The notes under the pieces were generated by a model. The model was not told where the DNA came from. It saw nothing but the letters and a program-made list of their open reading frames with translations, and ran no database searches. 64,000 nt of DNA, from NCBI GenBank assembly GCA_024687165.1, contig JAILEY010000037.1, positions 1 through 64,000 of the forward strand, read 5' to 3'. This DNA is from Treponema sp. GTDB lineage: Bacteria > Spirochaetota > Spirochaetia > Treponematales > Treponemataceae. Positions 24,412 through 35,757 of the stretch are shown piece by piece (positions within the stretch are counted from its first letter, which is position 1; each line of letters begins with the position of its first letter). The position numbers and the translations under genes are program-made.

Positions 24412-24492
24412 GGCTTACACATTAAACTTGAAAATAATTTTTAGAAAAAAACAAATGGAAAGTAAAACTTTACATTCGTTTTTATCCATATC

Positions 24493-24532
24493 TTTTTTAA
24501 ATTCAATGTCTTTAGACATTGAATTTAAAAAA
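24493..24532. repeat. Perfect 18-bp stem hairpin over the ychF stop codon
   Basis: TTTTTTAAATTCAATGTC (24493-24510), four-base loop TTTA, then its exact reverse complement (24515-24532). One arm is the last six sense codons of ychF (FFKFNV) and the other lies beyond the stop. No T-run follows outside the stem on the ychF strand, so it is not a textbook terminator, though it may still stop or protect the transcript. Confidence 0.75.
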
Positions 24533-25642
24533 GATCACATCTCCGTCCTGAACAACGTATTCTTTTCCTTCCTGTCTGTATTTACCTGCAGACTTGATTG
24601 CTGCTTCAGACTTCAATGCACGAAGATCATCAATTGAGTAACATTCAGCTTTAATAAATCCCTTTTCAAAATCTGTGTGGATTACACCGGCTGCCTGTGG
24701 AGCTTTGTCTCCTGCGTGAATAGTCCATGCTCGGCATTCATCAGGTCCGCCTGTAAAGAATGTGCGAAGTCCCATCAGGTGGTAAACTGTGCGTGCAAGA
24801 ACTGTGAGTCCGCTTTCTTTAAGTCCTACTGAATCCATGAATTCTTTTTTGTCTGCTTCGTCTGTGATGTCGCTCAAATCAGATTCAAACTTTCCGCAGA
24901 TTACAAGAATTTCGCTCTTCTGTTCTTCTGCAATTTTTCTTACAGTTTCAACGTAATCATTTGTTCCTGCTGCGATTGTGTCTTCATCGATGTTACATAC
25001 AAAAACCTGAGGCTTAATTGTAAGAAGGTGAAGATCATAGATTGCTGCTTTTTCTTCATCAGAAAGCTCTGCCATGCGCGCACATTTTCCTTCCATGAGC
25101 AGTGGCTTGATTTTTTCTATTGCGCTGAAATATGGAGCAAGACGTTTTTCTTCATCTTTTCCCATTGCACGAATCTGCTTTGTAATTTTTTCTGCACGCT
25201 TTTCGATTGTATCAAGATCAGCCTGTGCAAGCTCAAAGTTGATTGTAAGGATGTCGCTTAAAGGATCGATTGGAGCTTCTGTTTTTGCATCATCACGTAC
25301 ATGCTGAATATCCGGATTGTCAAAGCATCTTACAACGTGAGCAATAACTGCAGTTTCGCGGATGTTTGCAAGGAATTTATTTCCAAGACCTTCACCCTGA
25401 CTTGCACCTTTGATGAGGCCTGCAATATCAACAAAATCAACTGTTGCAGGAACTTTCTTTTTAGGTTCAAAAATGGAACACATGAAGTCAAGGCGTTCAT
25501 CAGGAAGATCAACAATTCCTACGTTTGGATCGATTGTACAGAACGGATAATTTGCTGCTTCTGCCGGTGCTTTTGTAAGTGCACTGAAGATTGTTGATTT
25601 ACCTACGTTTGGAAGTCCGACGATTCCACATGTCAATTTCAT
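24512..25642 (-). CDS. ychF: Redox-regulated ATPase YchF/Obg-like
   Basis: A 376-residue P-loop NTPase of the YchF/OLA1 family. GLPNVGKSTIFSALT is Walker A, DIAGLIKGASQGEGLGNKFL the switch region, and the carboxy-terminal TGS-like domain ends QDGDVIFFKFNV as usual. The NIDE in place of NKxD matches the ATP preference known for this family. It associates with ribosomes and responds to oxidative stress in other bacteria. AAGGAA precedes the ATG. The last codons form one arm of a perfect hairpin with the sequence after the stop. Confidence 0.95.
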   Translation of the reverse strand: MKLTCGIVGLPNVGKSTIFSALTKAPAEAANYPFCTIDPNVGIVDLPDERLDFMCSIFEPKKKVPATVDFVDIAGLIKGASQGEGLGNKFLANIRETAVIAHVVRCFDNPDIQHVRDDAKTEAPIDPLSDILTINFELAQADLDTIEKRAEKITKQIRAMGKDEEKRLAPYFSAIEKIKPLLMEGKCARMAELSDEEKAAIYDLHLLTIKPQVFVCNIDEDTIAAGTNDYVETVRKIAEEQKSEILVICGKFESDLSDITDEADKKEFMDSVGLKESGLTVLARTVYHLMGLRTFFTGGPDECRAWTIHAGDKAPQAAGVIHTDFEKGFIKAECYSIDDLRALKSEAAIKSAGKYRQEGKEYVVQDGDVIFFKFNV

Positions 25643-33996: not shown

Positions 33997-34100
33997 TCGA
34001 GAAACGTATTTCAGATGCTTTGCATCTGAAACCCCGAGTTTTTACGAGCAAAGTAAAACTCACTGTGCTAAAAAATGACATAAGACAGTAGAACTCTCGA
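33997..34100. repeat. Three-way-junction inverted-repeat element
   Basis: Outer TCGAGA (33997-34002) pairs with TCTCGA (34095-34100). It encloses a perfect hairpin, TTTCAGATGC (34009-34018), loop TTT, GCATCTGAAA (34022-34031), and a second, GAGTTTTTAC with GTAAAACTC. The layout, an outer stem with two inner hairpins, is that of the elements at 13953 and 46882, but the primary sequence is different. Confidence 0.55.
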
Positions 34101-35054: not shown

Positions 35055-35678
35055 ATGAAAAATATTGCTGTACTTGTTTCCGGCGGTGGTACAAACCTCC
35101 AGGCTCTTATTGATTATGAACGTTCTCACGCTGATTGTCCTTATAAAATCTGCGTTGTAATTTCAAGCACCAAAAATGCATACTCTCTTGAGCGTGCTGC
35201 AAAAGCTGAAATCCCTTCTGTTATAAAAAGTCCTTTCAGTGTAATGGGAAAAGAAAAAGCCCAGAGTTCTACACGTGAAGAAAAAAATGAAGCTGTTTCA
35301 AATGCAATTCTTGAAGAATGTAAAAATCGCGGAATTGATATCATTGTTCTTGCAGGATATTTAAGCGTTCTTCAGGGTGCAGTCATAAAAGAATACAAAA
35401 ATAAAATCATTAATCTTCATCCGGCGCTTCTTCCAAAATTCGGCGGAGTCGGAATGTGGGGACATAATGTTCATGAAGCAGTTCTTGCTGCAAAAGAAAA
35501 AGAAAGCGGCTGTACTGTTCACCTTGTTGATGACGGCTGTGATACTGGAAAAATTCTTGTTCAGAAAAAAGTTCCTGTAATGAGTGATGATGATGTTGAT
35601 TCTCTATATGCACGTATTGCTCCAGAAGAACACAAAGCTATAGTAGAGGGACTATTGCTAGTTTGCGCAGCAAACTAG
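35055..35678 (+). CDS. purN: Phosphoribosylglycinamide formyltransferase PurN
   Basis: A 207-residue GAR transformylase using 10-formyl-THF. Motifs: VLVSGGGTNLQALID, VLAGYLSVL, the catalytic INLHPALLPKFGG (Asn and His) and HLVDDGCDTGKILVQ with the catalytic Asp. The carboxy terminus reads APEEHKAIVEGLLLVCAAN and stops at a TAG that lies inside a palindrome. Just downstream, in another frame, a second copy of this tail is found (APEEHKAIVEGLLMVCKD). The last twelve or so codons of the gene use ATA, GTA, GAG, CTA and TTG, unlike the rest. It therefore appears that the original end was displaced by an insertion that also supplied a replacement tail. Confidence 0.93.
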   Translation: MKNIAVLVSGGGTNLQALIDYERSHADCPYKICVVISSTKNAYSLERAAKAEIPSVIKSPFSVMGKEKAQSSTREEKNEAVSNAILEECKNRGIDIIVLAGYLSVLQGAVIKEYKNKIINLHPALLPKFGGVGMWGHNVHEAVLAAKEKESGCTVHLVDDGCDTGKILVQKKVPVMSDDDVDSLYARIAPEEHKAIVEGLLLVCAAN

Positions 35679-35697
35679 GGGAGCATGCGAAGCATGC
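35658..35697. repeat. Tandem palindromes at the purN 3' end
   Basis: CTAGTTTGC (35658-35666), loop GCA, GCAAACTAG (35670-35678), then GCATGC (35683-35688), loop GAA, GCATGC (35692-35697). Both are perfect hairpins with three-base loops. The purN stop codon is within the first. Confidence 0.85.
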
Positions 35698-35700
35698 GGC

Positions 35701-35757
35701 GCTCCAGAAGAACATAAGGCAATTGTTGAAGGATTACTGATGGTCTGTAAAGATTAA
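35701..35757 (+). pseudogene. Displaced original 3' end of purN
   Basis: These bases encode APEEHKAIVEGLLMVCKD and a TAA, the same tail as purN with 14 of the first 16 residues identical, but out of frame with it. The first 14 nt match the in-gene copy exactly; later codons are synonymous but different. The codons here fit the host's usual preference (ATT, GTT, GAA), so this is probably the ancestral tail. Confidence 0.75.

Follow-up and report, generated by a model that had tools for sequence, protein, structure and literature searches.

Double-hairpin elements accompanied by cognate gene tails at purN and other conserved genes of Treponema

We report that the last codons of purN in a gut/rumen-type Treponema were very probably supplied by an inserted segment, which consists of a foreign purN tail and a double-hairpin element, and that the original end of the gene has been pushed downstream. 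The locus lies in a window of 64,000 nucleotides (the whole stretch of DNA that was analysed), which belongs to an assembly of 2.38 Mb (G000). The element comes with a tail that is cognate to its target gene and maintains the end of the protein, and the native gene end stays behind as a downstream copy. As the best explanation we propose a non-autonomous element without any ORF, made of two hairpins, which moves between species together with a short cognate gene tail and whose GNC end is joined 3' of a YG dinucleotide by an enzyme that has not been identified; we give this reading a probability of roughly 0.6. We have high confidence in its historical part, i.e. a foreign tail and a mobile element. 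The joining steps are inferred and stay distinctly tentative.

Anatomy of the purN locus

The purN gene (phosphoribosylglycinamide formyltransferase; PF00551, E = 3.6e-45) is an ORF for 207 amino acids on the forward strand (positions 35055-35678 of the window), as are all features of the locus described here. Its C-terminus reads APEEHKAIVEGLLLVCAAN-stop, and a second copy, APEEHKAIVEGLLMVCKD-stop, begins at 35701. Both ends, from 35619 and from 35701, code for APEEHKAIVEGLL(L/M)VC and are identical over the initial 14 nt; among the 12 codons that follow, one is identical (GGA), 10 show synonymous differences and one replaces L by M. This agrees with the preliminary description, made from the sequence alone, which had noted two ends with the same protein and mainly synonymous differences.

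The in-gene tail, APEEHKAIVEGLL (35619-35657), which we interpret as the foreign one, runs into hairpin 1, CTAGTTTGC-GCA-GCAAACTAG (35658-35678), which was delimited from its sequence and with a covariance model. Hairpin 1 codes for L-V-C-A-A-N and contains the TAG stop codon of purN, as had been pointed out for the first palindrome. It is followed by the linker GGGA (35679-35682; GTAA in the consensus of the family alignment), by hairpin 2, GCATGC-GAA-GCATGC, with a GNA loop (35683-35697; sequence and covariation), and by a terminal GGC (35698-35700; GNC in the family, mostly GAC). The latter end abuts the native purN end in its displaced position, APEEHKAIVEGLLMVCKD-stop (35701-35757), which is now outside the purN reading frame. 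The element itself covers 43 bases (35658-35700) and scores 64 bits with covariance model R1 (see below).

With five neighbouring genes as reference, the summed log codon frequency is -19.8 for the in-gene tail versus -12.0 for the displaced tail, which bears out the earlier remark that the former uses rarer codons and the latter host-like ones. Moreover, when the purN ends of 28 relatives were compared, the displaced copy was closer in 23 and the in-gene copy in 5. Among the matches listed, the tail and hairpin arrangement was absent at purN of the relatives, and a donor of the purN tail was not found. The foreign origin of this particular tail is hence a supported inference, which rests on codon usage, on the relatives and on analogy, without a donor. 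The earlier suggestion of an 82-bp insertion that brought a substitute tail is supported, the inserted piece being the presumed foreign cognate tail plus the double hairpin. Recombination with a foreign purN end had been offered as the alternative; the tail does appear to be foreign, but this is not separate from the insertion, since both would be one event. Two further perfect hairpins in the window, at 24490-24535 (21-bp stem) and 34009-34031 (10-bp stem), do not belong to the family of the purN element.

A family of double-hairpin elements

Covariance model R1 was built from six copies and comprises hairpin 1, a 4-nt linker, hairpin 2 and GNC, about 44 nt in the family. It matches in 178 of the 196 genomes of the genus Treponema and also, mostly with lower scores, in a small number of further genera from the same order. 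Most of the genomes compared are MAGs, and the named records with the element are almost all Treponema MAGs together with the isolate T. bryantii B25. Eight pattern matches in other taxa lacked both the second hairpin and the duplication and look like chance. No match to the element was obtained in the viral contigs searched, the purN locus was unmatched in the plasmids searched, and an Rfam search of five element loci returned only a tRNA and no known RNA family.

The stem pairs are 99.3% intact and 9 of the 15 pairs show double changes; 107 cells are changed on both sides, compared to 20 expected in shuffles (the alignment was fitted to the model). The purN palindromes belong to a single family of elements whose stems covary. 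C(GNA)G and C(GNNA)G are known to form stable DNA hairpins, and the loops of hairpin 2 fit one or the other on one strand in 104 of 124 elements and on the other strand in none (0/124). The four-base loops comprise 42 GNRA and 27 GNYA, i.e. the third base is a purine or a pyrimidine, and the loops therefore suit DNA hairpins better than the GNRA rule for RNA. The most frequent linker feet in the 124 elements are GTAA (52), TTAA (16), TGAA (11) and GGAA (8). At four other loci (L040, L022, L147 and L200) duplicated stretches are also separated by hairpins with the stem cores AATTGC and CTGGTTTTGC, so that the family is wider than model R1.

Target genes and junctions

A search of the G000 genome with the first palindrome gave five more copies, every one beside a duplicated gene end: one at the C-terminus of pta, two at the start of purH, one at the start of htpG, and one at the 3' end of tRNA-Asn with its terminator. 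Furthermore, a lower-scoring copy at an apparent mnmE repeats FCVGK-stop, and a copy after an apparent pgk has no obvious duplicate. A DNA search over the whole genus recovered the same element with a duplicated end in other species. The targets are ordinary conserved genes, which we take from their sequences to be pta, groEL, tkt (transketolase), ppdK, ilvD, asnB, argB, murA, queA and pflB, in addition to purN (assigned by PF00551), and presumably also mnmE and the 5' ends of purH and htpG. The preliminary description would have been refuted by the absence of other palindrome-associated duplicated tails; dozens were found. It was right that the element brings a tail, which is, however, not a generic one: each copy has the tail of its own host gene. 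The inserts are about 80 bp long, exact or near-exact copies occur (purH about 45 nt, htpG 33 nt, pta in G111 23 nt), and tandem arrays of tail and hairpin units exist.

At the starts of htpG (L035) and purH (L066) the element supplies a new 5'UTR with its own ribosome-binding site, and the initial codons are nearly identical to the displaced copy. At the tRNA-Asn locus (L034, 1479-1672) the tRNA 3' end and the terminator are duplicated, and the displaced terminator hairpin is kept despite its changed sequence.

Of 119 distinct elements, 60 have a duplicated gene end directly after GNC (no more than 6 nt from hairpin 2), versus 82 of 4000 mismatched flank pairs (about 2%); given this recurrence at the same place, chance is excluded. 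About half of the elements have no duplicated flank. Averaged over 59 pairs, the identity between displaced and in-gene copies is about 0.25 up to GNC and 0.66-1.0 directly after it. Hairpin 1 is preceded by G in 97%, mostly as Y-G, and a G stands directly in front of the repeated tail in 88% (background 23%), with T following this junction G in 7%. Between the point where the repeated tail begins and hairpin 1 lie 19-76 nt (median 34.5). The element is thus preceded by YG, and the displaced native end begins exactly after GNC.

Origin of the two tails

The 50 coding tail pairs have 193 identical codons, 163 with synonymous and 49 with nonsynonymous differences. The synonymous identity between the two tails of one genome is 0.52, about that between species (0.45-0.50), so that the two tails are not a recent duplicate that has diverged in place. 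A simple old duplication with gradual drift, which had been named beforehand as a possible refutation, is excluded for the recoded tails. We also considered, and rejected, the idea that selection has recoded one tail to be as unlike the displaced copy as possible, since the identity within a genome is not below that between species.

Which of the two tails is foreign is resolved in the transketolase gene of T. bryantii B25, where both an empty site and a donor-like tail are available. The displaced tail matches the end of the uninterrupted G099 gene (38/40 coding nt, 11/12 codons), and the start of the 3'UTR that follows is also like that of G099. The in-gene tail matches the more distant G070 (36/39 nt, 10/12 codons) and shares 1-4 codons with the others of the 25 species compared. 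The body of the gene is like G099 (442/470) and G003 (445/470), and only 406/470 like G070. Hence it is the in-gene tail that is foreign, whereas the displaced one is native. On its left side the foreign stretch has no sharply resolved boundary and may reach 5-20 nt upstream of the junction in B25. In the transketolase genes of G078, G102 and G146 the in-gene tail codes for EELAKRL and the displaced one for EKLAEVLAK or EKLAEIL. Across transketolase 3' ends (L299-L328), the synonymous identity of the last 13 codons is 0.46 versus 0.70 in the body, also where the element is absent; we have for this reason not counted elevated tail divergence as evidence of insertion. Without an element, such divergence may have been left behind by elements since lost, or may be typical of gene ends in general.

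At ppdK, the unit of tail, spacer and hairpins is identical at 89 of 90 positions in G112 and G179, whereas the preceding 30 nt have only 3 of 10 third positions in common; the displaced tails differ. It follows that tail, spacer and hairpins move without the gene body. One case does not fit easily. In ilvD of the sisters G021 (L294) and G107 (L158), the stretch from the spacer through the hairpins and the displaced tail to the bases beyond it is almost the same, yet the in-gene tails differ in 7 of 12 comparable codons, including a serine codon immediately upstream of the junction that is TCA in one and AGC in the other, while in the gene body 113 of 129 synonymous codons are identical. This suggests an extra replacement step, i.e. 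repeated tail replacement, which counts against our best explanation and is not explained by it.

Proposed mechanism and search for the machinery

In the mechanism that we propose, the element would first insert in a donor species, at a site that lies downstream of a gene and 3' of a YG dinucleotide, and donor DNA would then reach the recipient through horizontal transfer. The strand with the GNNA loop would fold as single-stranded DNA, and an unidentified enzyme, acting on this hairpin-folded form, would join the GNC 3' end just after a YG of the recipient gene, about 20-75 nt upstream of the eventual position of the element. The freed 3'-OH of the YG could pair with the homologous donor gene and prime a copy of the donor tail, the spacer and the hairpins. 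The product would have the order gene body, foreign tail, stop, hairpins, GNC and native tail, with the protein intact. Joining of this kind predicts a fixed right junction and a G at both sites, and homology-primed copying would explain why in-frame hits are in the cognate gene only. Conceivably, though we rate this somewhat below an even chance, the elements represent a class of bacterial mobile elements without ORFs, which spread from species to species through a homology-primed, one-ended insertion, with the hairpin end joined enzymatically and the other end captured by pairing with the cognate gene. If so, every jump would carry a replacement gene end and essential genes would become safe targets.

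A homing endonuclease or other ORF within the insert was ruled out, as there is no room for one in 82 bp. The elements are present in 178 of the 196 Treponema genomes. Y1 transposases were detected in 61 of these 196, reverse transcriptases (RVT_1) in 55, and integron integrases (IntI) above the cut-off in 57, including G000; none of the three is general in the genus, and all were rejected as the general machinery, IntI less firmly than the other two. The 27 Y1 loci examined contained no copy of the element. Although its identity is unknown, the enzyme responsible for joining the GNC end can now be sought as a concrete target.

Alternative explanations

Ordinary homologous recombination or gene conversion between species, with the hairpins as passive passengers or hot spots rather than a mobile element, is the alternative that we take most seriously, even if we find it unlikely. 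It accommodates the foreign tails, which are real, and gut Treponema species evidently exchange DNA; nor is any enzyme known for our mechanism, and neither a Y1 transposase nor a reverse transcriptase is general in the genus. It does not, however, account for a right junction that nearly always falls at the same element base, mostly 3' of G, for a native tail that is kept instead of being replaced, for a tail identity that is too low for normal recombination, or for the ppdK unit, the shared part of which ends within about 10 nt of the junction. A tandem duplication of long standing, or an extended target-site duplication created on insertion, would, with subsequent drift of the two copies in place, explain the exact and near-exact copies at purH, htpG and pta of G111 and remains possible for these. 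For the recoded cases it is contradicted by an untranslated copy in which the encoded protein is preserved although synonymous sites have reached saturation, and by the donor-like in-gene tail and native displaced tail of B25; as a general account it is improbable. We give even less credence to the idea that both tails are functional alternatives under selection, for example through reversible excision or phase variation. The displaced copies do retain reading frame and stop, the tandem arrays could be read in this way, and the displaced pta copies differ only synonymously across species. Yet recent displacement of a native tail accounts for such conservation with no need of selection, the in-gene frame terminates ahead of the displaced tail, and in B25 the displaced tail equals the native end of a relative.

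An origin as REP-type repeats mobilised by a RAYT/IS200-like Y1 transposase is in our judgement doubtful, less so than duplication and more so than recombination. REPs are short palindromes with a conserved foot tetranucleotide, are often located at gene ends and may supply a stop codon, and CGTC-tagged REPs have no known transposase (PMC3733652, PMC6006769). In size, in the hairpin with a 5' tetranucleotide (GTAA), in the single-strand loop rule and in the location at gene ends our element is REP-like (PMC6006769, PMC3733652). For a REP the foot would be GTAG/GTGG; in Treponema the commonest foot is GTAA (52/124). The Treponema element differs from REPs in that it consists of two hairpins in a set order and ends in GNC, and a Y1 gene is neither general (61/196) nor adjacent (0 of 27 Y1 loci with an element). 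Moreover, duplicated or foreign gene tails, which the Treponema element has, are not mentioned for REPs in these two sources (PMC3733652, PMC6006769).

Relation to known systems

In outcome, the closest analogue to the foreign tail and displaced native end, as seen in the B25 transketolase and as indicated for purN by codons and relatives, is provided by the mobile C-termini of fungal mitochondria, i.e. atp6 of Allomyces macrogynus and atp6, atp9, cox2 and nad3 of Glomus, where a foreign 3' end is in frame and the displaced native end still matches a close relative, which the inserted end does not (PMC3630166). In both systems the copies differ strongly in DNA and little in protein. The fungal insert has an endonuclease ORF, whereas that of Treponema, about 80 bp long, has no ORF and only the double hairpin, and it strikes many genes in bacteria. 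Repetitive hairpin elements of sponges are likewise short, mobile-looking and located in organelle DNA. The double hairpin elements of fungal mitochondria are also short, mobile-looking and made of hairpins, and reside in organelle DNA; for both kinds the likeness is no more than a lead (PMC2800124). Rickettsia palindromic elements lie inside genes with the frame kept (as cited in PMC3733652); they add residues inside proteins and, unlike the Treponema element, neither replace a gene end nor displace a native copy. In the open-access literature, which is no proof of novelty, we found no paper on tail-carrying elements in Treponema and no description of tail-swapping mobility of this kind in bacteria.

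With this element, bacterial species would have a route for trading no more than the final 10-20 codons of conserved genes, and a mobile element could in this way use essential genes as targets without harm. Since recoded copies of a gene end lie side by side in one genome, the direction and the source of each event can be read directly.

Integrative elements that target 3' ends restore the 3' end of the target gene, are kilobases long and carry an integrase; the restoration is similar in Treponema, but the insert is short and without integrase. The attC site of integrons is a single-stranded hairpin site, which is a further likeness, and integrons cut at G|TT. Integron-type recombination at G|TT was rejected for the Treponema element, where the junction is rarely G-T (0.07) and the left and right bases differ (G versus C). 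As a separate observation, G000 has a full-length integron integrase on contig C2 (356-1291; L362; E = 9e-124), and in the genus this gene is often near contig ends.
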